From the NCBI RefSeq assembly GCF_007747995.1, contig NZ_CP036276.1, forward strand, positions 7,244,001 to 7,308,000: DNA of 64,000 nt, in the 5' to 3' direction. Each line of letters begins with the position of its first letter. Within the stretch, counting starts at the first letter, position 1. The stretch is from Symmachiella dynata. GTDB lineage: Bacteria; Planctomycetota; Planctomycetia; Planctomycetales; Planctomycetaceae. Made by a program: the position numbers and the translations under genes. Of this stretch, positions 2,752 through 39,887 are shown piece after piece. The notes beneath the pieces were generated by a model that did no database searches, was not told the origin of the DNA, and saw only the letters and a list, made by a program, of their open reading frames with translations.

Positions 2752-2799
2752 AAAACGGGTCTCTGGTGAGCGGCCGTTTCATTTCAGTGGAGAACAATC

Positions 2800-3333
2800 A
2801 TGAGTACGACACGACGGATATTCCTGGCAGCGTTGGGCGGACTTCTTAGTTCGCACTTTGCCGGTCCTCTATTGGGTGCACCACAGCGCGGGCGCGGTAG
2901 ACGGGGACGCGGCGGCGGGCGGGGACAGAATGACCCGCAATTCCAAAGAGATCGCACCGTATTTCAATATCTGTTAGCGAATCACAAACAGATTCGGCGC
3001 GAGGTCAAGAAACTGCCCAATGGTGTGGAGACGGTCACCGAATCGGACGTGCCGGAAATCGTCGCCGCGATTCAGGAACACGTCGCTGCCATGCATCGCC
3101 GTGTTAAGAACAAACAACCGATCCGGCAGCGCGATCCCTTGTTTGCAGCCTTATTTCGCAACGTACAATGGACCTCGATGACTGTAAAAAACACCCCCAA
3201 AGGGGTGCACGTCGTGGTCACGTCGGAAAAAAAGGCTGTCGTCCCGTTGATTCAAGCCCACGCCCAAGTTGTGTCGGCATTTGTCAAACTGGGATTCGTG
3301 GAAGCACGCAAGAACCATGCTGTTCCCAAATAA
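2800..3333 (+). CDS. Small secreted protein of unknown function with a Tat-type signal
   Basis: A 177-residue protein. The N-terminus STTRRIFLAALGGLLSSHF resembles a twin-arginine signal (S/T-R-R-x-F-L). It is followed by a low-complexity Arg/Gly stretch (residues about 29-46) and a mainly helical domain rich in His and Lys. No catalytic motif is recognised. A GGAG ribosome-binding site precedes the ATG. It lies 48 bp after the TauE-like gene on the same strand and may be the last gene of that operon. Signal peptide plus operon position suggests a periplasmic accessory, but I do not recognise the family. Confidence 0.75.
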   Translation: MSTTRRIFLAALGGLLSSHFAGPLLGAPQRGRGRRGRGGGRGQNDPQFQRDRTVFQYLLANHKQIRREVKKLPNGVETVTESDVPEIVAAIQEHVAAMHRRVKNKQPIRQRDPLFAALFRNVQWTSMTVKNTPKGVHVVVTSEKKAVVPLIQAHAQVVSAFVKLGFVEARKNHAVPK

Positions 3334-23400: not shown

Positions 23401-26400
23401 ACAGGCGTATCTTCGTCAGTCGCTAAAGTCGTCCCTGTCGCCGTTGGATCATCATTGACGGCTGCCACGTTGATATCGATTGCGAGCGGCCCAACGGTAA
23501 TTGCTGGATCGGCGCCATCGCCGGTATCTGTCACGTCATAGACGAATGAAGCCGAACCGTTGTAGTTCGCACCGGGTGTGAACCGTGCCGTGTATCCATC
23601 AGCGAGGAGTTCCACGCTACCGTTAACCGCACCCGAAACGTTAAATACCAGATCATCATCGGCGGTTTCCACGTCATCGACCAGCGTTCGCAGGTCGATC
23701 TCCACCGGCGTGTCTTCGTCGGTATTCAGCGTCGTCGTACCAGCCACCGGATCATCATTCACCGCAGCCACGTTGACGTCCACGGTTTGCGGTGCAGACG
23801 TGATCGCACTAGTACCGCTGTCTCCCGTATCCGTCACACCATAGTTGAACGACGCGGGACCGTTGTAGTTCGCACCCGGTGTGAACCGGGCTGTGTAACC
23901 ATTGGCCAGCAGTTCGACCGTGCCGTTCACAGCGCCGGATACGCTGAACACGAGATCGTCATCGGCCGTCTCAACATCGTCCACCAGCGTCCGCAGGTCA
24001 ATCTCGACCGGCGTATCTTCATCGGTATTCAGTGTCGTCCCCGTCGCGACCGGGTCATCGTTCACTGCGTCCACGTTCACGGTCATCGTGAGCGGTCCGG
24101 TCGTGATTGCCGCTGCACTCCCGTCGCCGGTATCCGTCACGTCGTAGTTAAACGAGGCCGGACCGTTGTAGTTCGCCGTCGGTGTAAAACGAGCCGTGTG
24201 GCCGTCCGCCAGCAGTTCTACGGTGCCGTTCACCGCCCCCGAGACATTGAAAATCAAATCTTCGGCGGCCGTTTCGACGTCGGAAACAAATGTCCGCAGA
24301 TCGACTTCAAGCGGGGTGTCTTCCAAAATATTAAATGTCGTGACATCCCCTTGCGGAACGTCGTTTACCGCCGCCACGTCCACCACAAACGTCTGGCTGA
24401 TACTCAGTCCGCCCGTGTCGGTCGCCTGAACGGTGATCGTCGACGTCCCGTTGGCATTCGGAGCATAATCGAGTGTCAACTGGCCGGTAGTCGGGTTGAT
24501 CATCGCCGACGCAAACAGCGATGCGTTGCTGTTCGCTGTGATTTCAAAGTCCAAGTCGCTGTCCGCATCTTCCAAGTCGTCAAAAGCGGCAAACAGATCA
24601 ATCAGGCTTGAGGGAGCGTCTTCCAGAACGGCAACGTCTTCAATCGGTGTTTCCACAAATGGCTGATCATTGTCGCCACCGACATTGATATCGATCGTGA
24701 TTGGACCAACGAGGATCGCCGCTGCACTGCCGTCACCCGTGTCGGTCACGTCGTAAACGAAGGACGCCGGACCATTGTAGTCCGCACCGGGCGTAAACCG
24801 CGCCGTGTAGCCATCGGCGAGCAGCTCCACGGTCCCGTTCACAGCACCCGACACGCTGAAGAACAGATCGTCGTCAGCCGTTTCGACGTCATCCACCAGC
24901 GTACGCAAGTCGATCTCAACCGGCGTATCTTCATCAGTCGCCAAGGTCGCTGCCGTCGAATCCGGCTCATCATTCACCGCAGCCACGTTGATGTCGATCG
25001 TCAACGGCCCCACGATAATCCCCGGGGCATCACCATCGCCCATGTCCGTCACGTCATAAACGAACAACGCCGCACCATTGTAATTCGCACCCGGCGTAAA
25101 CCGTGCCGTGTAACCATCGGTCAGCAGTTCCACCGTGCCGTTCACGCCACCGGAGACATTAAAGACCAAGTCGTCATCAGCGGTTTCGAGATCGGCAACC
25201 AACGTTCGCAGATCGATTTCGACCGGTGTGTCTTCATCGGTCGCCAAGGTTGTTCCTGTCGCAACCGGATCATCATTCACCGCTGCCACAGTCACGTCGA
25301 TCGTCACCGGACTGACCGTAATCGGAGCATCACCGCCATCACCCGCATCCGTCACGTCGTAAGCAAATGAGGCCGGGCCGTTGTAGTTGGCACCGGGCGT
25401 GAACCGGGCCGTATAACCATTGGCCAGCAATTCCACCGTGCCGTTCACGGCTCCTGACACGCTAAAGACAAGATCGTCGTCAGCCGTTTCCACATCCTCG
25501 ACGAGCGTTCGCAGGTCAATCTCAACCGGCGTATCTTCATCGGTTGCTAAAGTTGTCGGATTCGCCACTGGATCGTCGTTCACCGCAGCCACGTTCACAT
25601 CGATCGTCAATGGGCCACTAGTAATCGCCGCCGCACCGCCATCCCCTGTGTCCATCACGTCATAGACAAATGAGGCCGGACCGTTGTAATCCGCACCCGG
25701 TGTAAACCGTGCCGTGTGACCATCGGCGAGCAATTCCACCGTCCCATTGACCGCACCGGAAACGCTGAACACCAGATCGCCGTCCGCCGTCTCGACATCT
25801 TCGACCAACGACCGCAGGTCAATTTCAACCGCTGTGTCTTCGTTCGTATTCAGCGTCGTCGCACCGGCCACCGGAGCATCATTCACCGCGGCCACATTGA
25901 TCTCGATGACTTGCGGAGCGGACGTGACCGCAGCGGCACTGCCATCTCCAGTATCCGTCACGTCGTAGACGAACAAAGCAGGACCATTGTAGTTCGCACC
26001 GGGTGTGAACCGCGCCGTGTGACCATTGGCCAGCAGTTCGACGCTGCCATTCACGGCACCCGATACATTGAACACGAGATCGTCATCGACCGTTTCAACA
26101 TCGTCCACCAGCGTCCGTAGATCAATTTCAACCGGTGTATCTTCATCAGTATTCAGCGTCGTTCCCGTCGCTACCGGATCGTCATTCACCGCCGCCACCG
26201 TGATGTCGATCGCGAACGGCCCGACGACAATCGCTGGGTCCACGCCGTCGCCGGTATCTGTCACGTCATAGACGAACGAAGCAGGACCGTTGTAATTCGC
26301 ACCGGGCGTGAACCGCGCCGTGTAACCATCTGTCAGCAATTCTACGCTACCATTGGTCGCGCCAGACACACTGAACACCAGATCGTCATCGGCCGTCTCG

Positions 26401-29400
26401 ACATCGTCCACCAACGTCCGTAGGTCAATTTCGACCGGTGTGTCTTCGACAGTATTCAGCGTCGTTCCAGTGGCTACCGGAGTATCATTCGTCGCACTGA
26501 CCGTCACATTGATCGTCACCGGATCGCTCGTGAGAGGAGTATCCGCACCATCGCCGGTATCAGTCACGTCGTAATCAAACGAGGCCGGACCGTTGTAGTT
26601 CGCGCCGGGTGTGAATCGTGCCGTGTAACCATTGGCCAGCAATTCCACGCTTCCATTCACAGCACCTGACACACTGAAGACAAGATCGTCGTCGGCTGTT
26701 TCCACATCCTCCACCAACGTACGCAGATCAATCTCAACCGGCGTATCTTCGCTCGTCGACATTGTCGTAGAACTTGCCACTGGATCGTCATTCACCGCAG
26801 CGACGTTGATGTCGATCGTTTGCGGAGCGGACGTAATCGCAGCAGCACTGCCATCTCCCGTATCCGTCACGTCGTAGACGAACGACGCCGGACCGTTGTA
26901 GTTCGCACCGGGAGTGAACCGCGCCGTGTAACCATCAGCGAGGAGTTCCACGCTGCCATTGACCGCACCAGATACGTTGAACACGAGATCGTCGTCGGCC
27001 GTTTCGACATCATCGACCAACGTTCGCAGGTCGATCTCAACGGCTGTGTCTTCGTCAGTATTCAGCGTCGTTCCCGTCGCCACCGGATCATCATTCACCG
27101 CCGCCACCGTGATGTCGATCGCGAACGGTCCGACGATGATCGCTGGATCCGCGCCGTCGCCGGTATCTGTCACGTCATAGACGAACGACGCCGGACCATT
27201 GTAGTTCGCACCCGGTGTGAATCGCGCCGTGTGACCATCTGCCAGCAGTTCGACCGTACCATTCACCGCGCCAGACACGTTGAACACCAGATCATCATCG
27301 ACCGTTTCGACATCATCGACCAACGTCCGTAGATCGATCTCCACCGGTGTATCTTCATCGGTATTCAGCGTCGTTCCCGTCGCGACTGGATCGTCATTCA
27401 CCGCCGCCACATTGACGTCGATGGTTTGCGGAGCAGATGTGATCGCAGCGTCGCTGCCATCGCCCGTATCCGTCACGTCATAGTTGAACGATGCGGAGCC
27501 GTTATAGTTCGCACCCGGTGTGAATCGTGCCGTGTAACCATCGGCCAGCAGTTCGACCGTGCCGTTCACAGCGCCCGATACGCTGAATACCAAATCGTCG
27601 TCGGCCGTCTCAATGTCGTCAACCAGCGTCCGTAGATCAATTTCAACCGGCGTATCTTCATCCGTCGCCAAGGTCGTCCCCGTCGCGACCGGATCGTCAT
27701 TCACCGCCGCCACATCCACGATGAACGTCTGGCTGATGCTCAAACCACCGGTATCAGTCGCCTGGACCGTGATGGTTGATGAACCGTTGGCATTCGGAGC
27801 GTAATCGAGCGTCAACTGGCCGGTCGTCGGGTCAATCATCACCGACGTAAACAGCGATGCGTTGCTGTTGGCCGTGATCTCCAAGTCCAACTCACTGTCC
27901 GCATCTTCCAAATCTTCGAAGGCGGCAAACAAATCGACCACGCTCGAGGGAGCATCTTCGATCACAGCCACGTCGCCAATCGGTGTTTCCACAAACGGTT
28001 GATCGTTATTGCCACCGACATTCACCGTAATCGTCACCGGCCCGACGGTGACGAATGGGTCGTCCCCACGGATTCCGTCATCAGTGACGTGATAGTCGAA
28101 CGCGGCAACTCCGCTGAAGTCTTCATCCGGGGTGAAGCGGGCTGTGTAGCCGTCAGGTAACAATTCGACCGTACCGTTCACCGGGTTGGATACGGCAAAG
28201 GTGAAGTTGTCATCCTCCGTCTCGACATCTTCAACCAAGGTCCGCAAATCGATCTCGACCGCTGTGTCTTCAGTGGTATTCAACGTCGTCGTGCTTGCCA
28301 CGGGTGGGTCGTTAACGTCTTCCACAATGATGCGGAACGTTTGTTCGACGAACAACCCGCCGGTATCGGTCGCGCGAACGGTGATGACGGTCAGCCCTGC
28401 GGCGTTTGCTGCATATTCCAACGTGAGTTCGCCGGTGACTTCGTCGATGGAGACGTTTTCGAACAATATAGCGTCGGTGTTGCCGGTCACCTCGAACACC
28501 AAGTCTTCATCCGGATCTTCGACGTCGCTGAAATATGTGAAGAGGTCCAGGACCGTCGGCGGGGCATCCTCATTGACATCAAAGTTAGACAAGACCAACT
28601 CGATCACGGGTGTGTCGTTCTCAGCAGCAATAACAACATTGTTCACGATCGGTCCCACAGTGATCGGTGCAGCACCAGAATCGCCCGTGTCCGTCACGTC
28701 ATACTGGAACGACGCTGGGCCGAAGTAATCCGCTCCGGGTGTGAATCTCGCCGTATAGCCATCCGCCAGCAATTCGACGGTGCCGTTGACCGCGCCTGAA
28801 ACGCTGAACACGAGATCGTCGTCAGCCGTTTCATCGTCTTCGACCAGCGTCCGCAGGTCGATATCGACAGCGGTGTCCTCGTTGGTATTCAAAGTTATAC
28901 CGACGGCGACCGGTGCTTGGTTCACGGCAAAAACGTTGACGTCGATTGTTACCGGACCGGAACTGATCGGCGCGTCGCCGCTGTCACCGGTATCTGTGAC
29001 TTCGTAATCGAATGCAGCGGGACCGTTGTAGCCATCAGCCGGCGTGAACACCGCCGTATACCCGTTGGCCAGGAGTTCAACGGTGCCGTTGACCGCGTTG
29101 GACACGGAAAATGCCAGATCGATATCCGGTGTTTCCACATCGTCAACGAGCGACCGCAGATCGATTGAGACCCCAGTCCCCTCGGTAGTGTTGAGCGTTG
29201 TCGTTTCCACAACCGGAGCGTCGTTGACAGGAGCGATGATGATGTTAACTATAAACGGGCCGACAGTGACCGGGCCGTCGACACCATCGCCAGTATCTGT
29301 GACTGTAAACTCAAAATTACCGAAACCGTTGTAATCGGGGACGGGAATAACAGTTGCAAAATGGAGGCTGTTCCAATTGAGAATGATGTTATCAACGCCG

Positions 29401-32400
29401 GTGATGTCGAAGACCAAATCTTGACCGGTCGTTTCTACATCGCTAATCAATGACGTCAGGGAAAAGTCGAACCGCTCGTCTTCATTCAAGTTCAACGTTG
29501 TGAATATATAGATGGGTGCATCATTGACGGCAGCGACGTTGACGTTGATTACTATCGGGCCAACCGTGATCGGAGAATGAATACCATCCCCCGTATCGGT
29601 CACGCCATAGAGAAATGACGCCGCACCATTGTAATCCGCTCCTGGCGTGTATCGCGCCGTGTAGCCGTCAGACAGCAATTCCACCGTGCCGTTGACAGCA
29701 CCGGAAACACTGAACACAAGATCGTCATCAGCCGTTTCAGCATCATCAACCAGCGTTCGCAGGTCGATTTCGACAGCCGTATCTTCGTTAGTATTCAAAG
29801 TCGTGCCAACGGCGACCGGTGCTTGGTTCACATTGGCCACGTTGACGTCGATTGTCACCGGTCCGGAAGTGAGCGGTGCATCTCCATTGTCTCCGGTATC
29901 GGTGACATGGTAATCAAACGACGCAGGTCCGTTGTAACCGGCAGCGGGGGTGAACCGCGCCGTGTAACCGTTTGCTAACAACTCCACGGTACCGTTGACA
30001 GCATTGGACACGGAAAACGTCAGCGCGCCGTCCGGTGTTTCCACATCGTCGACCAGCGTACGCAAGTTGATATCGACGGCGGTCTCTTGGTCGGTGTTGA
30101 GCGTTGTCGTTTCCGCAACCGGGGCGTCATTGACCGGAGCGTAGTTGACGTTGACGATAAACGGGCCAACAGTGATCGGGGCGTCGGTTCCGTCACCGGT
30201 ATCCATCACGGTGAATTCGAATGAGGCGGGACCGTTGTAATTGGGAATGGGAAGAACAGTAGCATCACCGTTGGAGGCGAAGTTGAGAACGATGTGATCA
30301 ACACCGATGATATCGAAGACCAAATCTCCGCCCAGTGTTTCGACATCAGTGACATACGACGTCAGGAAGAAATCGATCCTCTCATCTTCATCTAAGTTGA
30401 GAGTTAGACCGGAAAAGACAGGGGCGTCATTGACCGCATTGACGGTCACCGCAAACGTCGTTTCGACAAACTCACCACCAAGGTCGGTGGCGCGAATCGT
30501 AATGTCAGCCACACCGTGCAAATTGGGAGCATAATCCAGCGTCAAGATTCCCGTGGCAGGACTGATCGATACTGCTGTAAACAGCGCGGCGTTCGAGTTG
30601 CCCACGACTTCATACGTCAACTGCTGATCGGCATCTTCTGCATCGTCGAATGCGGCAAAGAGGTCGATCTGGGTTGCCGCCGCGTCTTCGTCGACGGTGA
30701 CATCAGCGATACCGGTCGTAGTCGGCGGTTGGTTGGAGCCGATCTCTTCGACAATGGTCGTGGTGACTTGTTGCTGGCCAAGTTCTACCCCACCGGTAAC
30801 GTCAGTGATGTCGACGATGACCGTTTCGCTGCCTTCATCCAGTTCATCAGCGACTCCAGTGATGGTGATGCTGCCCGACAGACTGCCCGCTTCGATCACG
30901 ATCGAGTGATCTGACAGCCTGTAGTCGCCTGCCGAGGCTACGAACAACAAGCCCAATGGATCGACGAGCCCGCCGCCAGAAGACATGGTTCCCAGAAAAT
31001 CGCCCGTAGTCCCGTCGTACTTGAGAATCGCGCCGCTGGCGCTGCTGACATAAAGATTGCCATCCGGACCGAACGTGAAGTCGGTCGGTGCGTCTAGCCC
31101 GCCGCCGGATGCGAAGCTACCGAGAAACGCGCCCGTCGTCCCGTTGTAACGGAGGATCTCATCATCAGGCTCATCGATGAGGTAGAGATTACCATCCGGG
31201 CCGAACGCTAAACCGGTCGGCTCGTCCAGTCCACCGGCACCATCCCCAAACAACTCCTTGATATAGGCGCCAGTCGTGCCGTTGAACACCAAGACGTTGT
31301 ACGGTCCACGACTGCCACCACGCCCGTGATTTGAGACATACAGATTGCCGTCCGCGCCGAATGCCAGTCCGACCGGATTTCCCAAATCCTCCGTATTGGG
31401 TAAGACAAACTGGTCGATGAACGCGCCGGTTGTGCCGTTGTAACGGAGCACGCTGTCGGTCTGGTTGCTCGTCACGTACAGGTTTCCATCCGGGCCGAAC
31501 ACCAAACCCCGCGGATCGTTGAGGCCGCCGCCGCTTGCAAAGGTGCCAAGCAGCGCACCGGTCGCACCGTCGTATCTCAGGATCGAATCGGTCGCCACGT
31601 TGGCCACATAGAAATCGCCATCGGGGCCAATGATCATGTCGCCGGCAGCGCCCGTGAAGTATTCATCGATGAACGCACCCGTGGCCCCGTCATATCGCAG
31701 GATGCTATTCGTCGCGCCATTAGCGACAAGCAGCGACCCGCCTTCGATGAAATCGTCGGCCGTTCCGCCAAAGCCCAAGAAGACCGTCACGTCCTCAGTG
31801 GTGATCCCTGAGAGTGTCGCTGTGATGGTCACGGTACCGCCCGCTTCTTCGATGATGTTCGAAGAGGCGTCCAGCGTGACCTCGGGGACAAACGCCGCTG
31901 GAATGACGTTTATCAAAATGTATGTGAAATCGGTGGCAGCCTCCGAGTCGGTCACCCTGATTAAAATTCCTTCCATCCCGCTGGAACCGGGGTTGCTGCG
32001 ATATGACAGCGTGGCGAGTGCGGCGTTGATGTCTGCGACGGCGCCTTCCACCATGATATCGTCCGTGCCGTTTCCAGACACGGTCAACCCAGACGTATTG
32101 CCAAGCGTTATGTTGCCGAAGGTCGAACTCAACTCAAGTGCAACGGTGGCCGAATCGATGTCCGTGACGCTCACGCCATCGATATCCAATTGCGTATCTT
32201 CGTCCACAAACAACTGCCCCGGAACGGTAAGAACCGGGGCGTCGTTAATATTGTTGACGATGATCGAAAAGGTCTGTGCCTCACTGATGTTCACGCCACC
32301 GTTGGCGGTCCCACCGTTGTCCATGAGTCTTACAGTAACAACGGCCGTTCCCGCAGCGTCATCGGCCACTGCGAACGAGAGTGCTCCCGCCGCGTTGATC

Positions 32401-35400
32401 GTGGGACCGTCGGTGAAGAGGGCATCGTTGTCGGTCGACACCAAGAACGACAGCGTCTGACCACTTTCGTCTGTCGGACCAGCAGCAATATTGGTAGCAA
32501 ACGCATAATTCGTTAGCCCGCCCGAATCCTCATCCACCACCTGGTCGCCCGCCAAGGTAAAGGACGGACTATCGTTCACGCTGGTGATATCGACATTTAC
32601 TGTGATCGGCCCCAACGTGATGGCCGAATCGGCACCGTCACCCGTATCCGTCACGTCGAAGTCAAATGCAGCTGCTCCGAAGTAGTCGGCGGCAGGCGTA
32701 AACCGCGCCGTATAACCATCCGCCAGCAATTCAATTGTGCCATTCACGGCACCGGAGACGGTAAACGTCAGATCGTCGTCGGCGGTTTCCAAGTCATCGA
32801 CCAGCGTCCGCAGATCGACATCCAAAATCGTGTCTTCCACAGCATTGACCGATGTGGAGACAATCACCGGATCGTCGTTCACAGCAGTGATCGTCACATC
32901 GAACGACTGCGTTACGGTTTGTCCGGTGGTGTCCATCGCCTCAATGGTCAAGGTCGCCGTACCATTGGCATTGGCGGCATAGTCGAGCGTGAGCATGCCG
33001 GCGGCGATGTTCAGTGAGGTAAAGAGCGCCGGATTAGTATTGTCACTGACGCGGAAGGACAACTCCGTATCCAAATCCTCCGTGTCACCGAATGCGGCAA
33101 ACAAATCAACGATTGTCGAAGCCGCATCTTCTGCAACAGTGACATCGTCAATCTGGGCCTCAATGAACGGCGGCACACTTGTGGGAATGCGACTGCCGAA
33201 ATCGAGGTTACCAATCGTCTCACCCGGATGAACGGTTACGGTGTAGGAAAGCGGAATGACCGGCTCGACAAGTTCGTCATCCTCAATGGTCACCGTGGCA
33301 TAGCGCGGTGCACCGACCGTATAGCCACTGCCCGACTCCACCGTGATAACAATCGTCTCCAACCCTTCCGCAGCTCCATCCGTGAGCGGCGTCAGGTCGA
33401 CCGTGACGGAAGAGTCGCCATCCAGGATGGTCGCAATTCCGGAAAGTGCTACGAAATCGCTGCCAGCGGTCGCTGTGCCGCCGATGGAATAATGAACCTC
33501 CAGCGCGCCGGAAGTCGTATCCGTACGCGTGAACGTAAACGCCCCCGCGGTAGCCCCTTCTTCGTCAATTGTTGAAATCACGGTATCGACCGTGACAAAC
33601 GGTAAACTCGTTCCCGGCGGGCGATAGGACTGGGCTTGGTTGTAGTCGACTTCATATCCCAGGTCCGCCAACGCACCGACCGTCACCAGACTGATCATCG
33701 CATTCGGATCGCTGATCGAGGTCATCAACTCGTTATCGAAAACCGTCTCGCGCCAGTGACTGCCCACCGACCCTGGGCCACCTACATTTTCCAGAGGAAT
33801 TGAGGACGCTGAAATGTTAAAGATGTCCGCGTACTGCTGCACCGCCTCTGCGCCAATGTATCGCGGATCCGGAGTCCCCACGTTGACCCGTAAACCGTTT
33901 GCGTCCCACAACACCCCCAGTCCCAAAGCGTGACCGATTTCGTGGAGGATGGTGCCGAAGAGTTCCGGGTGATCAAGATCGTTGACATCGAGCACGACCT
34001 CTCCGCGCACAGGCAATAATGTTCCTTCATGATACCCGCCCTCTGGAATGAGCGGACGTGCTTGACCGAGGGTATTCCCCACACCATCGATGTCGATTGT
34101 ATACACATCCATTAGAAAATCATCGACAAAGAACCCGTCCGGGCTGACCATGTCGGACAAGTCCCCGACGATAATTGACTCCCAAATCGCCGCGGCATCG
34201 AGGAAGAGTTGTTCCTGCTGCGGCGTGAGCGTTGCCGACAAAAACCGGAAATCAATATCGAAACCGGCCTGTGTCTCCGCTTGCGAACCAGGGAACGTCT
34301 GCACCCGGTCGGTCCCGTCGGGATATTCGACGGCAACAGTATAAGTCCCCGGCGCAAGATTGGTGAATTCATACTCGCCTTGTGCGTTCGTGGTCGTAAA
34401 GGGTTCGTCGGCAACATCGCGGACACCGTTCCCATTGATGTCGAGATAGACCACAAATCCTGCCAGCGGATCTTCGACCGCGTCCTGCACGCCATCGCCG
34501 TTCGTGTCGTTCCATTTGATACCGCTGAGCGTTGAGGGCTCGAAAACCGTAAACGTGCGAGAAAAGACATTATTGTCTTCGCCACCAGGCCCTTCATCGA
34601 CGTCGTCGCCCGAGTCGACCGTCATTTCGAGCGTGTGTTCACCGGCCGACAGTTGACCTAAGAAGATGTCTTCAAATCCTGCAAAATTAAACACTCCAAG
34701 TGTACCGGTCTGTTGCAGGGTAGTGACTTCCACCCCGTCGAGCGTCAGAGTTACAGAATATGAACCGGACGGTATGCTGCCAAAATTACCGCTGCCCAGA
34801 TCGACGTAAATATCATCCGTCGTGAGCAGCAGCGGTGTCGACGTATTGGTTCCCGACTCCTTGGAAATCACGATGGGGTTGTCCCACCCCGCAGCTAAGC
34901 CGGGTCCGATATCCGCGTACCCCGCAGCACCGACGTTGATGACCTTGTAGAAGATGTTGTTGCCTTCACCGCCGGACAGCCCTTCATCGACGCTGCCCGT
35001 CGAATCGATGATCAACTCGATGGTGTGGATACCGTTGCTGAGCGTGCCAATCGCGATGTCCTGGAAATCGAGCGCAAACTCATTCACGCCCAACGGAGTC
35101 GAGCGCGTGAGAGTTGTGATCGTCGAGCCATCGATGCGAAGCGTCACCGAAAACGGACCCGCCTCGGCAATCCCGAGATTCGCCACTCCCAAATCGACAA
35201 ATAGGTTGTCCGTGGCGTTATATGCCAAAGCATCCGTATTGGTTCCCGTAACTGTGGAAACGACGATTGGGCTGTCCCACACACCGTCGATCACGTCCGG
35301 CACCAAGTCGGGCAATGGCGAGTCATCATTCTGAATCGTGGCGACTCCCTCGCCATCTTCGATGACCGCGCCGGAGGCGTTGTTGAGCACCACCGAAAAG

Positions 35401-38400
35401 GTTTCGTCATCCTCAAACAACGTGTCGCCGAGAATCTGTACAACAATTGTCCGCTGAGTCTCACCCGCGGCAAAGGTGATTGTTCCGTCGGTAGCAACGT
35501 AGTCCCTGCCTGCTTCAGCGTTATTTGCAAGTGGATTGACGAAGACCCGATCGACCAACCCCGCTGCGGACGAGTCGACGGTCGTGAAATCGACAGTAGC
35601 TTCACCGGAGGCATCGCCACTTCGAGTGACCGTGAAACTTGCCAGTGAGCCGACGGGACCGGCAAATCGCAGCACCTCATTCAACCGCGCGCTGATGACA
35701 TACAGGTTGCCGTCCGCATTCACCTGAATGTCGCTGATGTCATCTAACCCACCGGCACCTGGTGCTACAAAATCACCGATCAACTCACCCGTCGTCGCAT
35801 CAATTTGCATCACTGATGAGCCAGCACGGTTGGTGACAAACAGCAACGAGCCGTCGGCCGAAAAAGCGAGACCACTCGGGATCCGTGGACCGGGAATGGC
35901 GGCGAAACGCCCCAAGAACGCTCCCGAGTCACCGTCATAGCGGAGCACTCCAGCGGTGCTGTCATTGCGGGTGTCGTTCACGACGTACAAATCGCCGTCC
36001 GGACCGAAAACCATGTCCTGAGCACCGGTCAATCCGCCGGTTTCATCGACACCGCCGGTCAGCGGATCGTCACCGACGAAGATGTCGACAAATTCCCCCG
36101 TGACCGCGTCGAAACGCAAAACCTGATCGGGGAGACTACTTTGACCGATGAGCACATACAACAGCCCGTCTTCGCCGAAGAACATCGTCCGCGCGTTGAG
36201 CACTTGATCGGCGGGAATAAAGGTGTCCACGAACGTGCCATCCACCGGATTAAAACGATGAACACCATCTCCCAGGGTATAGACGTTATCGTCCGGTCCG
36301 AAGACAACCGCATCGAAGGTCAGCACGCCTCCATCGTTGTCGAGAATAAACTCCGCACCATGATTGAGCGGCGTGGACAGCGGTTCGCCCGTCTGCCCGT
36401 CATAGCGAAACACGCCGGCCCTCGAACCGACATAGAGATTTCCATCGGGGCCGAACGTAAGGGAACGTGGGATATTCACCCCCCCCTCGCCGGAGGAAAC
36501 GAAGGCATCCATGAATTCCCCGCCACCCAGCCCGGCCCCTTCAGTGACAGTCACGTCGCTGACAGAAATCGTCGGTTGCGCCGGCGGAGGGACGTCGTCA
36601 TTGATGATCGTACCGACCGCCCAGTCATCCGTAATCAGCGTGTCGTTAATCTCGAAGAAAAAGACCCCAAACGATTCGTCCGGTTCAACAACCAAATCAG
36701 AATAGACTGGAACCGCAATGATGATTTCCGACACGCCTGGTTCAAAGATTAAATATCCGCCCCACCCCCATTGTGCCGTCGGCCCGAAGTCAGCATTTGG
36801 ACCGCCATCCGCACTGCCGGCCTCAAATTCGAACCTAACACGCAATCGCTCGGAAGTGCTGCCGGGACGCGTCGCGACAAAGTTGAAGTTCTTGGTTCCC
36901 AAGTTGCCTTCGACATAGGTGACGTCGGAAATGAACAACTCGCGGACGTCGTCGTTGAGAATTCGGCCCTCCCCTTGGCCGACAGCGATCGCCCCTCCAG
37001 CAACATTGGACAAATTGACGAAGAAGGTCTCGTTGGCTTCGTCGTCGAAATCACCGGCGACCTGCACCGTGATCGTCTTCTCTGTTTCGCCGGCCAAAAA
37101 GGTAAGCGAGCCGCTTGTCGTTTGATAGTCGCCCCGCTCGCCGATCACACCGCCGTTGTTCTCGAACCAACGAATCGAATCGTCGCCGAAGGAGGCCGCA
37201 GCCACATCCACGTCGCCATCACCATCGATGTCGGTGAGGATAATTTTTTCAACCCCGACGGAAACTGTCGAAATATAGTGAAACCGATAATTCCCATAGC
37301 CGAGATTTTCATACCAAGCGATTTGCGACAAACCCGCAGTAGCGGCGACGACGTCCAGGTCACCATCGCCATCAATATCAGCAGTCGCCACCGAGTTTGA
37401 CGACCCCGCAAAATCATCAATGACATAATGTGTGAAGTTTTCATTTCCGTCGTTTTCGTACCAGTCAATGGCGTAAGTTGAGCCCGTAAGCACGTCGAGG
37501 TCGCCATCACCATCCATGTCGGCAGCCCACACCGATTCAATAGTCCAGACTTCGTCGGCAATGATATGCTTAGTAAAGTTCTCGCTACCATCATTTTCAA
37601 ACCACAAGACCTGCCGCGGACTTAGCATCGAACCAACAAAGTCTAGATCACCGTCCTGGTCGAGATCAATAACTTCGAAGTCATCAGCGCGTGCCGCGCC
37701 GGTACTCACCGTGTGGTAAGTAAAACCGCCGGCGCCGTCGGACTCATACCATACTAGGATGGAGTCAAAATTGACGGCCACGACGATATCTAGGTCCCCA
37801 TCCGCATCGAGATCGACCACTTTGACGTCCGAGGGACGATCAAGTTCACCTGCGCCACTAATCGTCCGCTCTGTGAAATTTTCACTGCCATCGTTCTCAT
37901 AAATGTTGACCTCGTTGCGGGCGTAGGAAGTCGCAATGATATCCACATCGCCGTCGCCATCGATGTCCGCTGTCGCCACCCCATAGACGTCGCCTAAAAT
38001 GACGATTTCGTGAAACGTATAATTCTCGTTGCCGTCGTTTTCATACCACGCGAGTGTGTTATCATCGCGCGACGAGGAAACCATGTCGAGATCGCCGTCA
38101 CCGTCCACATCGGCGACCTGTACGTTGCGAGCTCCATCGGCCGTGTTGTCGATCAGATGCTCTTCGAAGCGCGAGAACTCTGTCGAGACATCCACGATCC
38201 CCAATGCCGTGCCGTCTGCCGTGGTGAAATCGACGGTCGTTTCTCCCGACGTATCGCCGCTGCGGGTCACCGTGAATTCAACAGTTTTTGAAAGCAGATC
38301 GCCTTCTGTCACGACGGCATCGCCGATCGAAACAGTCGCCCCCGGCAAGGCGTCATCGTTGAGAATCGTGCCGCGCGCCTGACCGTCATCCACCGAACCG

Positions 38401-39887
38401 CCCACGGTGTTACTAAGGCTGACGAGTAAGTATTCGTCTTCCTCATGTGCGACGTCGCCATTGACGATGACCGTGATCGTCTGCTGGGTCACGCCATCGG
38501 CAAACATCAACGAACCGCTCGTCGCGAAGTAATCACCCAGCTTCTGATTTTCGTAGTAGGTGATCGTATCTTCGACCGTTGAGGCAGACAGGATCTCCAG
38601 GTTTCCATCACCATCCAAATCGTCGGTGAAGAGCGTCGGAGCCACCAGCTTACCCGCTGTCACCGTATGCAATGTCCAAAAGTTGCGGCCGAGGTTTTCA
38701 TGCCATTGAATGCCCGCATCATCCCCCCCCACGGAAACGACAACGTCCACATCACCATCGCCGTCCATATCGGCGGTCCGCACATCGCGTACCCCGTCAG
38801 GGGTGGTACGGATCTCTTGGTATGTAAAGTTCTCGTTGCCGTCGTTCTCAAACCATGTGATGGTATAGTCGCCGTCATAGACAGCCACCACGTCAAGATC
38901 GCCGTCATCGTCGAAGTCTGCGGAGGAGACCGCAGTGGGTGTCGCCTCACTCGGCGCTTCGAAAATCACATGCCGCGTGAAGATTTCATTCCCATCGTTT
39001 TCAAACCACGATACGGTGTTGTCACCGGGGTTTGATGTGAGAACGTCCAGATCACCGTCACCATCCAGATCCGTCGCCTCAAACGCATTCACTTGGTTTG
39101 CAATATTGGTCACAACCCGCGTTGTGAAATTTCCATTGCCATCATTTTCGTACCAGAAAACGGTGTGGTCGAAATCAGACGACGCCATCGCATCCAGGTC
39201 CCCGTCGCCATCAACGTCGGCAACAGCAACCCTTTTCTCGCCTGCAACGGCAGTGTCGATTGCATGGAACGTGAAGTTCTCGTTGCCGTCGTTCTCGTAC
39301 CACGCAATCGTGTTGTCTTCGCGCGAGGCCGTGAGGATATCCGTGTCGCCATCGCCATCGAAGTCACCACTGGTCACATCTTCGGCACCATTGGCCGACG
39401 TGGTTACGGTGTGCGTTGTAAATACTCCGCCGCCGAGATTTTCGTACCAATGAATCGTATCGGAAAAATACGAGGCGGACAGAATGTCACTGTCCCCATC
39501 GCCATCAACATCGGCCGACGACACCGCCTCAGCGCGATCGGCCGTGGAGCTCAGAGTCTGTTCATTGAAAAACGTTTGAACCGGCGTCGCGTTCCCGCCG
39601 CCGGTTTCGAAATCGACGGTAACCACTCCTGAGGAACTACCGGTCCGGTCGACAGTGAATTCGAACGTCGATGTGCCGGCATCGCCCTCGGAAATCGAAA
39701 GATCGCCAATGGTCAGCGACCCCGCCAACAACGTGCGGTCTTCCAGTCCTTCCAAGGACAGCGGGATCTGTCGTCGACAGGTGCTAAACTTCCGCCAACT
39801 GCGATTTCGGCGACGGCGTTGAGAGGTCAAGCGAGTATAACGTTGCGAGCGAGCCCAAGAGGTGGTGAGCAATGACCAGAAAGACAT
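20439..39887 (-). CDS. Giant multidomain secreted protein: Calx-beta, VCBS/NHL, metalloprotease, cadherin-like repeats, dockerin
   Basis: A 6,482-residue protein. The N-terminus is Arg-rich and then has SLEGLEDRTLLAG (about residues 44-56), a variant of the planctomycete LEPR-XLL export/anchoring motif. Visible modules in order are: Calx-beta with a VCBS/FG-GAP block (about 56-520, repeats of the DVDGDGDLD type), a second such pair (about 520-960), a further Calx-beta, an NHL-like block (about 1125-1415, GPDGNLYV repeats) with its Calx-beta, two CARDB-like domains (about 1535-1780), an SdrD-B-like domain (from about 1785), a zinc metalloprotease module (HEIGHALGLG at residue 1982), another Calx-beta, cadherin-like repeats from about 2235, a second NHL block inside a Calx-beta (about 2665-3050), and cadherin-like repeats to about 6285. 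The C-terminal dockerin has two calcium loops. It is likely a Ca2+-dependent, very long surface or matrix protein. The start ATG has only a weak ribosome-binding site. Confidence 0.9.
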   Translation of the reverse strand: MSFWSLLTTSWARSQRYTRLTSQRRRRNRSWRKFSTCRRQIPLSLEGLEDRTLLAGSLTIGDLSISEGDAGTSTFEFTVDRTGSSSGVVTVDFETGGGNATPVQTFFNEQTLSSTADRAEAVSSADVDGDGDSDILSASYFSDTIHWYENLGGGVFTTHTVTTSANGAEDVTSGDFDGDGDTDILTASREDNTIAWYENDGNENFTFHAIDTAVAGEKRVAVADVDGDGDLDAMASSDFDHTVFWYENDGNGNFTTRVVTNIANQVNAFEATDLDGDGDLDVLTSNPGDNTVSWFENDGNEIFTRHVIFEAPSEATPTAVSSADFDDDGDLDVVAVYDGDYTITWFENDGNENFTYQEIRTTPDGVRDVRTADMDGDGDVDVVVSVGGDDAGIQWHENLGRNFWTLHTVTAGKLVAPTLFTDDLDGDGNLEILSASTVEDTITYYENQKLGDYFATSGSLMFADGVTQQTITVIVNGDVAHEEDEYLLVSLSNTVGGSVDDGQARGTILNDDALPGATVSIGDAVVTEGDLLSKTVEFTVTRSGDTSGETTVDFTTADGTALGIVDVSTEFSRFEEHLIDNTADGARNVQVADVDGDGDLDMVSSSRDDNTLAWYENDGNENYTFHEIVILGDVYGVATADIDGDGDVDIIATSYARNEVNIYENDGSENFTERTISGAGELDRPSDVKVVDLDADGDLDIVVAVNFDSILVWYESDGAGGFTYHTVSTGAARADDFEVIDLDQDGDLDFVGSMLSPRQVLWFENDGSENFTKHIIADEVWTIESVWAADMDGDGDLDVLTGSTYAIDWYENDGNENFTHYVIDDFAGSSNSVATADIDGDGDLDVVAATAGLSQIAWYENLGYGNYRFHYISTVSVGVEKIILTDIDGDGDVDVAAASFGDDSIRWFENNGGVIGERGDYQTTSGSLTFLAGETEKTITVQVAGDFDDEANETFFVNLSNVAGGAIAVGQGEGRILNDDVRELFISDVTYVEGNLGTKNFNFVATRPGSTSERLRVRFEFEAGSADGGPNADFGPTAQWGWGGYLIFEPGVSEIIIAVPVYSDLVVEPDESFGVFFFEINDTLITDDWAVGTIINDDVPPPAQPTISVSDVTVTEGAGLGGGEFMDAFVSSGEGGVNIPRSLTFGPDGNLYVGSRAGVFRYDGQTGEPLSTPLNHGAEFILDNDGGVLTFDAVVFGPDDNVYTLGDGVHRFNPVDGTFVDTFIPADQVLNARTMFFGEDGLLYVLIGQSSLPDQVLRFDAVTGEFVDIFVGDDPLTGGVDETGGLTGAQDMVFGPDGDLYVVNDTRNDSTAGVLRYDGDSGAFLGRFAAIPGPRIPSGLAFSADGSLLFVTNRAGSSVMQIDATTGELIGDFVAPGAGGLDDISDIQVNADGNLYVISARLNEVLRFAGPVGSLASFTVTRSGDASGEATVDFTTVDSSAAGLVDRVFVNPLANNAEAGRDYVATDGTITFAAGETQRTIVVQILGDTLFEDDETFSVVLNNASGAVIEDGEGVATIQNDDSPLPDLVPDVIDGVWDSPIVVSTVTGTNTDALAYNATDNLFVDLGVANLGIAEAGPFSVTLRIDGSTITTLTRSTPLGVNEFALDFQDIAIGTLSNGIHTIELIIDSTGSVDEGLSGGEGNNIFYKVINVGAAGYADIGPGLAAGWDNPIVISKESGTNTSTPLLLTTDDIYVDLGSGNFGSIPSGSYSVTLTLDGVEVTTLQQTGTLGVFNFAGFEDIFLGQLSAGEHTLEMTVDSGDDVDEGPGGEDNNVFSRTFTVFEPSTLSGIKWNDTNGDGVQDAVEDPLAGFVVYLDINGNGVRDVADEPFTTTNAQGEYEFTNLAPGTYTVAVEYPDGTDRVQTFPGSQAETQAGFDIDFRFLSATLTPQQEQLFLDAAAIWESIIVGDLSDMVSPDGFFVDDFLMDVYTIDIDGVGNTLGQARPLIPEGGYHEGTLLPVRGEVVLDVNDLDHPELFGTILHEIGHALGLGVLWDANGLRVNVGTPDPRYIGAEAVQQYADIFNISASSIPLENVGGPGSVGSHWRETVFDNELMTSISDPNAMISLVTVGALADLGYEVDYNQAQSYRPPGTSLPFVTVDTVISTIDEEGATAGAFTFTRTDTTSGALEVHYSIGGTATAGSDFVALSGIATILDGDSSVTVDLTPLTDGAAEGLETIVITVESGSGYTVGAPRYATVTIEDDELVEPVIPLSYTVTVHPGETIGNLDFGSRIPTSVPPFIEAQIDDVTVAEDAASTIVDLFAAFGDTEDLDTELSFRVSDNTNPALFTSLNIAAGMLTLDYAANANGTATLTIEAMDTTGQTVTQSFDVTITAVNDDPVIVSTSVNAVEDTILDVDLRTLVDDLETADDDLTFTVSGAVNGTIELLADGYTARFTPAADYFGAAAFDFDVTDTGDGADSAITLGPITVNVDITSVNDSPSFTLAGDQVVDEDSGGLTNYAFATNIAAGPTDESGQTLSFLVSTDNDALFTDGPTINAAGALSFAVADDAAGTAVVTVRLMDNGGTANGGVNISEAQTFSIIVNNINDAPVLTVPGQLFVDEDTQLDIDGVSVTDIDSATVALELSSTFGNITLGNTSGLTVSGNGTDDIMVEGAVADINAALATLSYRSNPGSSGMEGILIRVTDSEAATDFTYILINVIPAAFVPEVTLDASSNIIEEAGGTVTITATLSGITTEDVTVFLGFGGTADDFIEGGSLLVANGATNSILRYDGATGAFIDEYFTGAAGDMIIGPDGDFYVANVATDSILRYDGATGALLGTFASGGGLNDPRGLVFGPDGNLYVTSNQTDSVLRYNGTTGAFIDQFVLPNTEDLGNPVGLAFGADGNLYVSNHGRGGSRGPYNVLVFNGTTGAYIKELFGDGAGGLDEPTGLAFGPDGNLYLIDEPDDEILRYNGTTGAFLGSFASGGGLDAPTDFTFGPDGNLYVSSASGAILKYDGTTGDFLGTMSSGGGLVDPLGLLFVASAGDYRLSDHSIVIEAGSLSGSITITGVADELDEGSETVIVDITDVTGGVELGQQQVTTTIVEEIGSNQPPTTTGIADVTVDEDAAATQIDLFAAFDDAEDADQQLTYEVVGNSNAALFTAVSISPATGILTLDYAPNLHGVADITIRATDLGGEFVETTFAVTVNAVNDAPVFSGLTLNLDEDERIDFFLTSYVTDVETLGGDLVFDIIGVDHIVLNFASNGDATVLPIPNYNGPASFEFTVMDTGDGTDAPITVGPFIVNVNYAPVNDAPVAETTTLNTDQETAVDINLRTLVDDVETPDGALTFSVSNAVNGTVELLANGYTARFTPAAGYNGPASFDYHVTDTGDNGDAPLTSGPVTIDVNVANVNQAPVAVGTTLNTNEDTAVEIDLRTLVDDAETADDDLVFSVSGAVNGTVELLSDGYTARYTPGADYNGAASFLYGVTDTGDGIHSPITVGPIVINVNVAAVNDAPIYIFTTLNLNEDERFDFSLTSLISDVETTGQDLVFDITGVDNIILNWNSLHFATVIPVPDYNGFGNFEFTVTDTGDGVDGPVTVGPFIVNIIIAPVNDAPVVETTTLNTTEGTGVSIDLRSLVDDVETPDIDLAFSVSNAVNGTVELLANGYTAVFTPADGYNGPAAFDYEVTDTGDSGDAPISSGPVTIDVNVFAVNQAPVAVGITLNTNEDTAVDIDLRTLVEDDETADDDLVFSVSGAVNGTVELLADGYTARFTPGADYFGPASFQYDVTDTGDSGAAPITVGPIVNNVVIAAENDTPVIELVLSNFDVNEDAPPTVLDLFTYFSDVEDPDEDLVFEVTGNTDAILFENVSIDEVTGELTLEYAANAAGLTVITVRATDTGGLFVEQTFRIIVEDVNDPPVASTTTLNTTEDTAVEIDLRTLVEDVETEDDNFTFAVSNPVNGTVELLPDGYTARFTPDEDFSGVAAFDYHVTDDGIRGDDPFVTVGPVTITVNVGGNNDQPFVETPIGDVAVIEDAPSSVVDLFAAFEDLEDADSELDLEITANSNASLFTSVMIDPTTGQLTLDYAPNANGSSTITVQATDTGGLSISQTFIVDVAAVNDDPVATGTTLATDEDTPVEIDLRTLVDDIETADDDLVFSVSGAVNGTVELLADGYTARFTPGANYNGSASFNYDVTDTGDGSDAAITSAPQTIDVNVAAVNDDPVATGTTLNTDEDTPVEIDLRTLVDDVETVDDDLVFNVSGAVNGTVELLADGHTARFTPGANYNGPASFVYDVTDTGDGADPAIIVGPFAIDITVAAVNDDPVATGTTLNTDEDTAVEIDLRTLVDDVETADDDLVFNVSGAVNGSVELLADGYTARFTPGANYNGPASFVYDVTDTGDGSAAAITSAPQTIDINVAAVNDDPVASSTTMSTSEDTPVEIDLRTLVEDVETADDDLVFSVSGAVNGSVELLANGYTARFTPGANYNGPASFDYDVTDTGDGADTPLTSDPVTINVTVSATNDTPVATGTTLNTVEDTPVEIDLRTLVDDVETADDDLVFSVSGATNGSVELLTDGYTARFTPGANYNGPASFVYDVTDTGDGVDPAIVVGPFAIDITVAAVNDDPVATGTTLNTDEDTPVEIDLRTLVDDVETVDDDLVFNVSGAVNGSVELLANGHTARFTPGANYNGPALFVYDVTDTGDGSAAAVTSAPQVIEINVAAVNDAPVAGATTLNTNEDTAVEIDLRSLVEDVETADGDLVFSVSGAVNGTVELLADGHTARFTPGADYNGPASFVYDVMDTGDGGAAAITSGPLTIDVNVAAVNDDPVANPTTLATDEDTPVEIDLRTLVEDVETADDDLVFSVSGAVNGTVELLANGYTARFTPGANYNGPASFAYDVTDAGDGGDAPITVSPVTIDVTVAAVNDDPVATGTTLATDEDTPVEIDLRTLVADLETADDDLVFNVSGGVNGTVELLTDGYTARFTPGANYNGAALFVYDVTDMGDGDAPGIIVGPLTIDINVAAVNDEPDSTAATLATDEDTPVEIDLRTLVDDVETADDDLFFSVSGAVNGTVELLADGYTARFTPGADYNGPASFVYDVTDTGDGSAAAILVGPITIDINVGGDNDQPFVETPIEDVAVLEDAPSSLIDLFAAFDDLEDADSDLDFEITANSNASLFASAMINPTTGQLTLDYAPNANGTSTITVQATDTGGLSISQTFVVDVAAVNDVPQGDVTTFNILEDTPLEVDLRTFVSDVETAAEDLIFNVSGAVNGTVELLADGHTARFTPTANYNGPASFNYDVTDTGDGSAAAITTGPLTMTVNVDAVNDDPVATGTTLNTDEDTPVEIDLRTLVDDVETADDDLVFSVSGAVNGTVELLANGYTARFTPGANYNGPASFNYGVTDTGDSGTSAITSAPQTVDVNVAAVNDDPVAGTTTLNTDEDTPVEIDLRTLVDDVETADDDLVFNVSGAVNGSVELLADGYTARFTPGANYNGSASFVYDVTDTGDGADPAITVGPLAIDINVAAVNDDPTATGTTLATDEDTPVEIDLRTLVDDVETVDDDLVFSVSGAVNGIVELLADGYTARFTPGANYNGAASFEYDVTDTGDGSAAAITSVPQTVDIDVAAVNDDPTAGTTTLNTDEDTPVEIDLRTLVDDVETADDELVFNVSGAVNGTVELLADGYTARFTPGANYNGAASFVYDVTDSGDGDDPGIIAGPIAIDINVAAVNDAPVADSTTLSTGEDTPVEIDLRTLVSDVETSDDDLTFSVSDAENGSVELLVDGYTARFTPGADYNGPASFAYRVTDTGDGGDDPITVGPVTIDVTVGGDNDRPFVETPIGDVAVIEDAPSSVIDLFAAFEDLEDADSELDLEITANSNASLFASVMIDPTTGQLTLDYAPNANGSSTITVQATDTGGLSVSQTFIVDVAAVNDDPVATGTTLATDEDTPVEIDLRTLVDDIETADDDLVFSVSGAVNGAIELLANGYTARFTPGANYNGLASFNYDVTDTGDGSAAAITSAPQTIDVNVAAVNDDPVATGTTLNTDEDTPVEIDLRTLVDDVETADDDLAFNVSGAVNGTVELLADGYTARFTPGADYNGPALFVYDVTDTGDGGAAAITSAPQTIDINVAAVNDDPVASSTTMSTSEDTPVEIDLRTLVEDVETADDDLVFSVSGAVNGSVELQADGYTARFTPGANYNGPASFVYDVTDTGDGSAAAITSAPQTIDITVAAVNDVPIAGTTTLNTDEDTAVEIDLRTLVDDVETADDDLLFSVSGAVNGTVELLADGYTARFTPDADGPASFDYDVTDTGDGSDAAITSGPVTIDVNVAAVNEFTIVDVSVNDGEENRSNVRHITVTFSDDTNIGALIASGEIVEIIQIYGLTNSPSTEVVLSADRFVWDDATNSVTVDLTVDGFGGSGQTLLSNDNYALRIQTGEILNPQLVDAVLQDTDGVDDGIYDYRFHRLEGDIDGDRSVGFSDVMKLTSNFGQFNTDADTTGDGQVNILDFWSVYGNVGSSLPDDIFLESEQF
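20475..20640 (-). other. Dockerin type I-like domain at the C-terminus of the giant protein
   Basis: Two EF-hand-like calcium loops are visible, GDIDGDRSVGFSD and DTTGDGQVNILDFW, separated by about 20 residues as in type I dockerins. A short acidic tail ends the protein. Such domains bind cohesins. In planctomycetes they end many giant proteins and their partners are mostly unknown. Confidence 0.8.
21484..22550 (-). repeat. Large internal duplication, copy 1
   Basis: This block closely matches 26641-28010. The match at 21484 is offset by 5,157 bp and the match at 22261 by 5,460 bp. The 303-bp difference is one repeat unit, so copy 2 carries one extra unit. Long stretches are identical or differ at single bases. 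Confidence 0.8.
26641..28010 (-). repeat. Large internal duplication, copy 2
   Basis: Partner of 21484-22550, with one additional unit of about 303 bp (around 26940-27240). It includes the same switch from the EDTPVEIDLRTLV repeat type to the EDAPSS/DLFAAF type, which shows that a multi-repeat block was copied or converted as a whole. Confidence 0.8.
33600..34240 (-). other. Zinc metalloprotease module within the giant protein
   Basis: The module runs from LTPQQEQLFLDAAAIWESII to about NQAQSYRPPG and contains HEIGHALGLG (HExxHxxxxG, His at residue 1982). Downstream are the segments GSHWRETVFDNELMTS and ISLVTVGALADLGYEVDYNQ, as seen in leishmanolysin-like and planctomycete secreted metalloproteases. 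Zinc ligands and the catalytic Glu are intact, so it may be active. Confidence 0.75.

Follow-up and report, generated by a model that had tools for sequence, protein, structure and literature searches.

Calx-beta domains as candidate hosts of inserted propellers and other domains in a planctomycete giant protein and in other bacterial proteins

The giant protein and its interrupted Calx-beta domains

The window analysed here (64,000 nucleotides of contig NZ_CP036276.1, positions 7,244,001 to 7,308,000) is part of the single-contig 7.77-Mb genome of the planctomycete Symmachiella dynata and encodes, on the minus strand, a giant protein of 6482 amino acids (aa) in which four of the six Calx-beta domains (A, B, D and F) are interrupted by propeller-type guests, with C and E uninterrupted. 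The protein starts with Calx-beta domains A to D; next come Pfam matches to CARDB, SdrD_B and an M8 protease, and downstream of the M8 block lies Calx-beta E and then a series of cadherin/Big_9-type repeats with Calx-beta F among them. The remainder of the protein is a long further run of such repeats (residues 3301-6182, read by eye, outside the Pfam scan) and its end is dockerin-like (Pfam E-value 0.0048, below the cut-off). The features are as follows, with guest boundaries placed by eye to an accuracy of a few residues and with profile positions referring to the Calx-beta profile described in the next section.

20442-39887, minus strand: giant protein, 6482 aa, open frame (stop at 20439-20441)
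39588-39719, minus strand: Calx-beta A, first part (strands A-C), profile 1-74, the tail of the match extending into the guest
38544-39587, minus strand: guest A, seven-bladed FG-GAP propeller (PF13517; 7 motifs; AlphaFold2 model; Foldseek)
38352-38543, minus strand: Calx-beta A, second part (strands D-G), profile 43-107
38202-38339, minus strand: Calx-beta B, first part, profile 1-48
37143-38201, minus strand: guest B, seven-bladed FG-GAP propeller (PF13517; 7 motifs)
36948-37142, minus strand: Calx-beta B, second part, profile 33-107, the start of the match extending into the last blade of the guest
36594-36938, minus strand: Calx-beta C, uninterrupted, profile 2-107
36534-36575, minus strand: Calx-beta D, strand A alone, a strand motif starting 10 residues past the end of domain C
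35655-36533, minus strand: guest D, NHL-like propeller of about six blades (5 by motif, 1 by eye)
35322-35654, minus strand: Calx-beta D, strands B-G, profile 18-107
33273-33596, minus strand: Calx-beta E, uninterrupted, profile 8-107
31752-31889, minus strand: Calx-beta F, first part (Pfam LapA-model match; sequence position)
30939-31751, minus strand: guest F, NHL-like propeller of about six blades (PF01436; 5 blades by motif)
30744-30938, minus strand: Calx-beta F, second part, profile 45-106, E-value 0.0012

The sixth blade of guest F is read here as shared between the two ends of the guest. All four guests lie where a preliminary description of this DNA had placed splits of Calx-beta domains.

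Complementary host parts

The Calx-beta profile has 107 positions and was built for this analysis, independently of the Pfam model, from 300 of the 473 distinct intact domains found in the fetched loci. The split falls between strands C and D, just ahead of the DY motif, in A, B, F and P, the last being the single split Calx-beta of a paralogue encoded by a 1013-aa frame in genome G002 of the same genus (profile matches 1-47 and 44-107, the match ends past positions ~43-48 extending into the guest). Domain D is cut after strand A, i.e. in the AB loop. The preliminary description, which had put three of the insertions in one loop ahead of the DY motif and the fourth earlier in the domain, is thus correct on both counts. 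The two parts of each host are complementary in their profile coverage, save for match ends that extend into the guest.

Concatenated by script, the two parts of each host reach 112 bits for A, 121 for B, 126 for P, 94 for D and 37 for F, compared with 75 and 40 bits for the uninterrupted neighbours C and E. The joined A, B and P cover profile positions 1-107, as do the joined D domains of G000 and G002; the joined D of G001 gives two separate matches (1-48 and 41-107), and the joined F gives a weak match over positions 12-106 or 13-107. The first part of F is not reported by this profile and is matched by the Pfam LapA model (residues 3-42 of the split domain, E-value 1.1e-7); judging from these matches, F is a weak Calx-beta domain, like E. 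Apart from this weak case, counting both parts of a split domain yields an approximately full-length match to Calx-beta (PF03160).

The guests are also recognized by Pfam: residues 1-1100 contain, in addition to Calx-beta, 13 stretches of FG-GAP_3 (PF13517, E-value 1.3e-91), and guests D and F have NHL-, SGL- and Vgb-type matches. In all five FG-GAP guests that were checked there are seven D-x-D-x-D-G motifs, the number of repeats in a closed FG-GAP/VCBS propeller ring, and the model of guest A (see below) resembles propeller-bearing chains. Taken with the complementary host parts, these matches bear out the earlier proposal of whole propeller domains within Calx-beta domains. In the eight cases where both are listed, the orphan strand A lies 4-10 residues past the end of the preceding Calx-beta domain. 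All four splits recur in G001 and G002, the two genomes of the genus that were searched. The splits at the four places are not a matter of chance. Domain D also has about 20 extra residues ahead of the DY motif (window 35484-35597, minus strand), with a different sequence in G002.

Structure models

The AlphaFold2 model of A, computed from five aligned sequences, has a predicted local distance difference test score (pLDDT) of 80.7 and a predicted template-modelling score (pTM) of 0.76, with the guest blocks mostly above 80 pLDDT. By our own assignment, strands 4-13, 18-27 and 33-42 correspond to host strands A-C, and strands 404-408, 414-423, 432-439 and 448-453 to host strands D-G, so that all seven expected host strands are present in the model and flank the guest strands (50 to 396). 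Strand 50-59 together with the strands at 364-396 may be read as the usual ring closure of a propeller, with adjacent ends, and the model supports a seven-bladed propeller as guest A. In a Foldseek search with this model, the best query-normalised template-modelling score among the matches listed is 0.60, and the listed chains are mostly ones that we take to contain propellers, including LGI1, KICSTOR, integrin alpha and PLL lectin.

Split Calx-beta domains in other loci

A Calx-beta match is present in 28 of 40 related genomes. The loci compared come from a contig scan (79 loci; best 80 of 155 relatives), from genome searches and from 60 regions chosen for Calx-beta in large frames; removal of duplicates left 163 of 198 loci (2.13 Mb), with the loci fetched later (L198-L213) outside the split scan. 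This sample is not random and several of its rows were called by eye, so that the figures of the tally are not frequencies. The 163 loci contain 1084 full-like Calx-beta matches, distributed over 161 loci, of which 145 start at profile positions 9-20 (AB-split hosts included); the uninterrupted domain is the norm in the sample. The AB loop is split in 23 domains (3 in the genus and 20 outside) and the CD loop in 16 (14 ahead of the DY motif and 2 after it), and no split was found in the BC, DE, EF and FG loops, FG splits being partly missed by the listing.

AB splits in the genus: D of the window, L007, L008
AB splits outside the genus: L035, L037, L054, L057 (two), L062, L063, L069, L075 (two), L081, L083, L089, L091, L092, L107, L140, L145, L148, L195
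CD splits ahead of the DY motif, in the genus (10): A, B and F in three genomes, plus P
CD splits ahead of the DY motif, outside the genus (4): L009 (two), L010, L103
CD splits after the DY motif: L160 (two)

Assignment of the two L160 splits to the DE loop was considered and rejected: they lie past the DY motif but ahead of strand D of model A (404-408) and are therefore counted under CD. Several of the calls were made by eye, namely strand A of the first splits of L057 and L075 and of L081 and L145, the first copy in L009, L010, and F in the three genomes; the second part of F in L008 was over the limit for listing and has an E-value of 0.0089 in another profile run. Excluded from the tally were L025, L029, L144, L161 and L173 (strand A apparently missing, with no orphan strand upstream or a locus that starts too late), L102 and L106 (inserts of only ~25-40 residues), and truncated loci such as L055, L071 and L072.

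Recall was assessed with random 280-residue inserts placed in 250 uninterrupted domains per site, under the listing rules with text filters. The simulated splits listed, out of 250, numbered 222 for AB, 248 for BC, 250 for CD ahead of the DY motif, 250 for CD after it, 250 for DE, 247 for EF and 154 for FG (209 for FG in an earlier run without the text filters). The high recall at BC, DE and EF implies that the absence of splits there is not a blind spot, which FG partly is; the control covers the listing and not the subsequent reading by eye. The filter of the joining step keeps 10 of 250 simulated AB splits, and the AB cases come from reading the listing by eye and from a scan of 25 chosen loci; AB splits are probably undercounted.

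Counting each guest family once per loop gives five families at AB and five at CD. By our own arithmetic, the chance that all 10 fall in two of six equally likely loops is 1.7e-5 if the two loops are specified in advance and 2.5e-4 if they may be any pair; the true figure is weaker in view of the length of CD, which exceeds that of every other loop, and of the incomplete recall at FG.

The search of other genomes for the same split, suggested in the preliminary description, thus extends the pattern to further loci and to both loops, although the rule as first proposed was too narrow: the guests are not limited to propellers, nor the hosts to planctomycetes. The combination of an FG-GAP guest with the CD loop was considered as a common feature of the class and rejected, given that the best matches listed for a junction profile run over 397 genomes span the full junction only in the three genomes of the genus. 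These full-span matches (starting at model position 1 or 2) fall at seven places, and a search of 197 relatives with a second query returned the same seven. Among the matches starting at model positions 3-9 (e.g. G066, G341, G353 and G372), no split was flagged at the two places fetched, in G066 (L171) and G341 (L184).

Guests of the two loops

The AB guests are NHL (D and L035) and FG-GAP (L037 and L148) propellers, a GH5 cellulase (15 copies), PA14 (L091, Pfam E-value 2.5e-32) and NIDO (L145, 4.4e-26). The GH5 guest of L062 has a Pfam E-value of 2.5e-50, and the 14 other GH5 guests are 58-81% identical to it; the copies are found in alphaproteobacteria and planctomycetes (e.g. L062, L107, L054, L057 and L075), and the 15 cases probably represent one old insertion that spread. 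The CD guests are FG-GAP, NHL, a P-domain (L103, from Vicinamibacteria; PF01483, E-value 1e-7), a domain of ~90 aa and a domain of ~205 aa. The propeller and GH5 guests are ~270-380 aa long, compared with ~107 aa for the host.

The ~90-aa guest occupies the CD loops of two neighbouring Calx-beta domains in L009, where it has the motif DATAATIQSELE, and, by eye, a CD loop in L010; no Pfam family matches its second copy in L009. In L160 (G128:C28, minus-strand frame), two adjacent Calx-beta domains (residues 2370-2695 and 2797-3124) are each split after the DY motif by similar guests of ~205 aa, of which the first copy, the only one scanned, has a weak DUF4350 match (E-value 6.5e-4, under the cut-off).

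Probable copying of host and guest

The comparison set for the guests comprised almost every other fetched locus, among them 15 regions of the same genome selected for their FG-GAP matches. In every query, guests A, B and P are each other's top matches: guest A finds P at 241 bits and B at 143-196 bits (best other propeller, 85.5), guest B finds P at 189 and A at 122-178 bits (best other, 82), and guest P finds A at 206-227 and B at 153-204 bits (best other, 103). When whole blades are rotated, the unrotated order scores highest in all five comparisons (675 versus 618, 838 versus 694, 727 versus 639, 690 versus 671, a small margin, and 876 versus 706). The hosts A, B and P are also closer to each other than to 147 background domains, by small margins (113-139 versus 107 for P); host B matches domain D of G002 as well as it does A (both 106). 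The sequence comparisons point to A, B and P as, most likely, one insertion copied as host plus guest. Three independent insertions at the same site of the giant protein were considered and rejected, A and B resembling copies in the guest, rotation and host comparisons. The repeated same-site insertion originally proposed is retained as a pattern that recurs in other loci, but A and B most likely count as a single event duplicated with its host.

The insertions F and D are separate from that of A, B and P. The nearest counterpart of guest F, itself located in the CD loop, is an AB-loop guest from another family of the class, that of L035 (47% identity, 180 bits); similarity to guest D, also in an AB loop, is lower (35%, 110 bits). 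One NHL guest family thus entered two different loops.

Other features of the giant protein

The sequence of the M8 block (window 33633-34235, minus strand; L007 and L008) varies among congeners that are alike at the N terminus of the protein. The protease motif is HEIGHALGLG in G000 (M8 match) and, by eye, in G001, and HEIGHQFGANHTF in G002 (by eye). Further large members of the family, in L041 and L030, combine, by eye, a matrixin-like block with uninterrupted Calx-beta domains. A Pfam match to TcdB_toxin_midN (window 36588-39887, minus strand; E-value 5.1e-7, 29.6 bits against a cut-off of 24.8) falls on the FG-GAP repeats and is read as a shared repeat type rather than a toxin. No secretion-system family was matched among the 10 neighbouring open reading frames (ORFs) scanned, the other ORFs of the window lying outside the scan.

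Probable nesting of domains and alternative explanations

We consider it quite probable that these are nested domains, with a guest inserted in the AB or CD loop of a Calx-beta domain whose two parts still form one sandwich. A complete guest domain with side-by-side ends would have been inserted into either loop, and the two host parts would still fold together as a single sandwich; the chain would enter and exit the guest at one point, so that the host would stay in line within the stalk and the guest, be it a propeller, a GH5 enzyme or PA14, would be held out sideways as a head. Once formed, host plus guest could be copied as a cassette. The complementary host parts, the loop preference in the sample, the variety of guests, the conservation in the genus and the copying as a unit are shown at the level of sequence. 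According to PMC9820601, the Calx-beta domain of NCX consists of the sheets A-B-E and D-C-F-G, with calcium ligands in the AB, CD and EF loops; restoring both sheets in a host cut between C and D would require its two parts to pair.

Several observations weigh against nesting and the copying of nested units. The F host fits the Calx-beta profile poorly even when joined. Structure prediction, proposed at the outset as a check on host packing, gives for A the seven-bladed propeller and strands at all seven host places, but the host is modelled with modest confidence (means over 10 residues of 58-72 in the first part and 40-74 in the second), and the model of D, from two sequences, is weak (pLDDT 66.6, pTM 0.64). 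No Calx-beta protein is named among the 50 Foldseek rows listed, although propeller chains fill the list, so that the search is uninformative on host packing. The EF loop, the third to hold calcium ligands, is free of splits in the 163 loci. Finally, when single blades are compared, a blade is matched best by the one of the same number in only 3 of 7 cases for A-B, 4 of 7 for A-P and 3 of 7 for B-P, i.e. in 10 of 21 rows, with 3 expected by chance; single blades being less clear, the case for duplication as a unit depends on comparing whole propellers.

The low score of the F host, together with its first part going unreported by the profile, would fit a string of beads in which the halves are remnants of separate Calx-beta domains, through decay or truncation, and propellers alternate with broken pieces. 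This is very improbable, given that the parts sum to one domain, apart from match ends that extend into the guest, that the joined A, B and P outscore their uninterrupted neighbours, that both parts are retained in three genomes of the genus, and that the orphan strand A occupies the expected start of the following Calx-beta domain; decay, furthermore, is unlikely to produce cuts in just two regions around guests that are unrelated. Sequence does not distinguish pairing of host parts within a chain from pairing between chains, and with four split hosts in one protein, first parts might be completed by second parts from adjacent repeats or from other molecules, as in domain-swapped fibres. Such complementation in trans seems scarcely likely, however: a guest with adjacent ends would keep the host parts together, which makes pairing within the chain the simplest solution, and P has a single split Calx-beta domain in its frame. 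A third alternative attributes the choice of loop merely to tolerance of Calx-beta for changes in length, with no role for side display or calcium. It is consistent with the lack of EF splits and with the short insertions (at least 8 residues) in 914 uninterrupted domains, of which 34 fall in the C-D connection, namely 2 after profile position 42, 7 after 47 and 25 after 51, and one elsewhere (after position 94). None lies at AB, which nevertheless holds most of the domain-size guests; tolerance may therefore explain the CD site but not AB, and we regard this alternative as rather unlikely.

Nesting of the guests suggests that Calx-beta, a domain common in stalks, acts as a socket carrying heads on its side; elongated stalk proteins could in this simple way acquire heads with the repeat array unbroken. 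More tentatively, and in a judgement that falls a little short of evenly balanced, Calx-beta could be a general socket of bacterial surface and secreted proteins, whose calcium-side AB and CD loops accept unrelated domains, including catalytic ones, and which spreads as a cassette once filled. The presence of calcium ligands in both loops of NCX raises the possibility that calcium influences how the guest is held. The propellers, to judge from resemblance, may bind ligands. Split copies are easily misread as fragments or overlooked, an AB split leaving only a lone strand of 12-14 residues. If the two-site socket is real, the annotation of such proteins would change, binding or catalytic heads could be found via split hosts, and the AB and CD sites would be natural mounting places in protein design.

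Comparison with known systems

The NCX domains CBD1 and CBD2 belong by sequence to the same family, an uninterrupted bacterial domain of L107 being matched by 3us9, 8sgi, 2dpk and others, but are regulatory domains of an ion exchanger, and the aligned NCX sequences show no domain-size insertion. The adhesin BapP of Pseudoalteromonas tunicata (PMC12153261) combines a beta-propeller with Calx-beta-type and BIg_9 repeats; unlike the guests here, its propeller is five-bladed and is placed end to end at the N terminus rather than nested.

The ECOD survey of domain insertions (PMC13114784) reports 48,551 events with the A1-B-A2 architecture that the Calx-beta splits share. In that survey, inserts are smaller than their hosts in 77% of events and cut positions are evenly spread overall; here, in contrast, the propeller and GH5 guests exceed the ~107-aa host and the cuts are confined to two loops. 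The word ‘Calx' does not occur in the main text of the survey, and searches of open-licence PubMed Central papers brought up no description of Calx-beta as an insertion host.

The closest known system is that of the RTX adhesins, FrhA of Vibrio cholerae and MpIBP, in which, according to PMC10865825, split immunoglobulin-like (Ig-like) domains project ligand-binding domains from the stalk, with a 12-residue first stretch ahead of the guest in FrhA and a split domain that orients PA14 in MpIBP. The likeness is that of an Ig-like sandwich discontinuous around its guest, indicated here by profile coverage; the FrhA layout is that of domain D, and PA14 is likewise the guest in L091. The differences, so far as that source describes the adhesins, are that the host here is Calx-beta (PF03160), that the CD loop is a second site, that the guests include propellers, GH5, NIDO and the P-domain, and that no RTX family is matched at an E-value of 0.01 in the scanned parts of the giant protein (residues 1-3300 and the last 300; residues 3301-6182 unscanned). 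The preliminary description knew of no precedent for such insertions, which is upheld, within the papers searched, for the Calx-beta host and not for split Ig-like domains around ligand-binding domains, the latter being already known from RTX adhesins.
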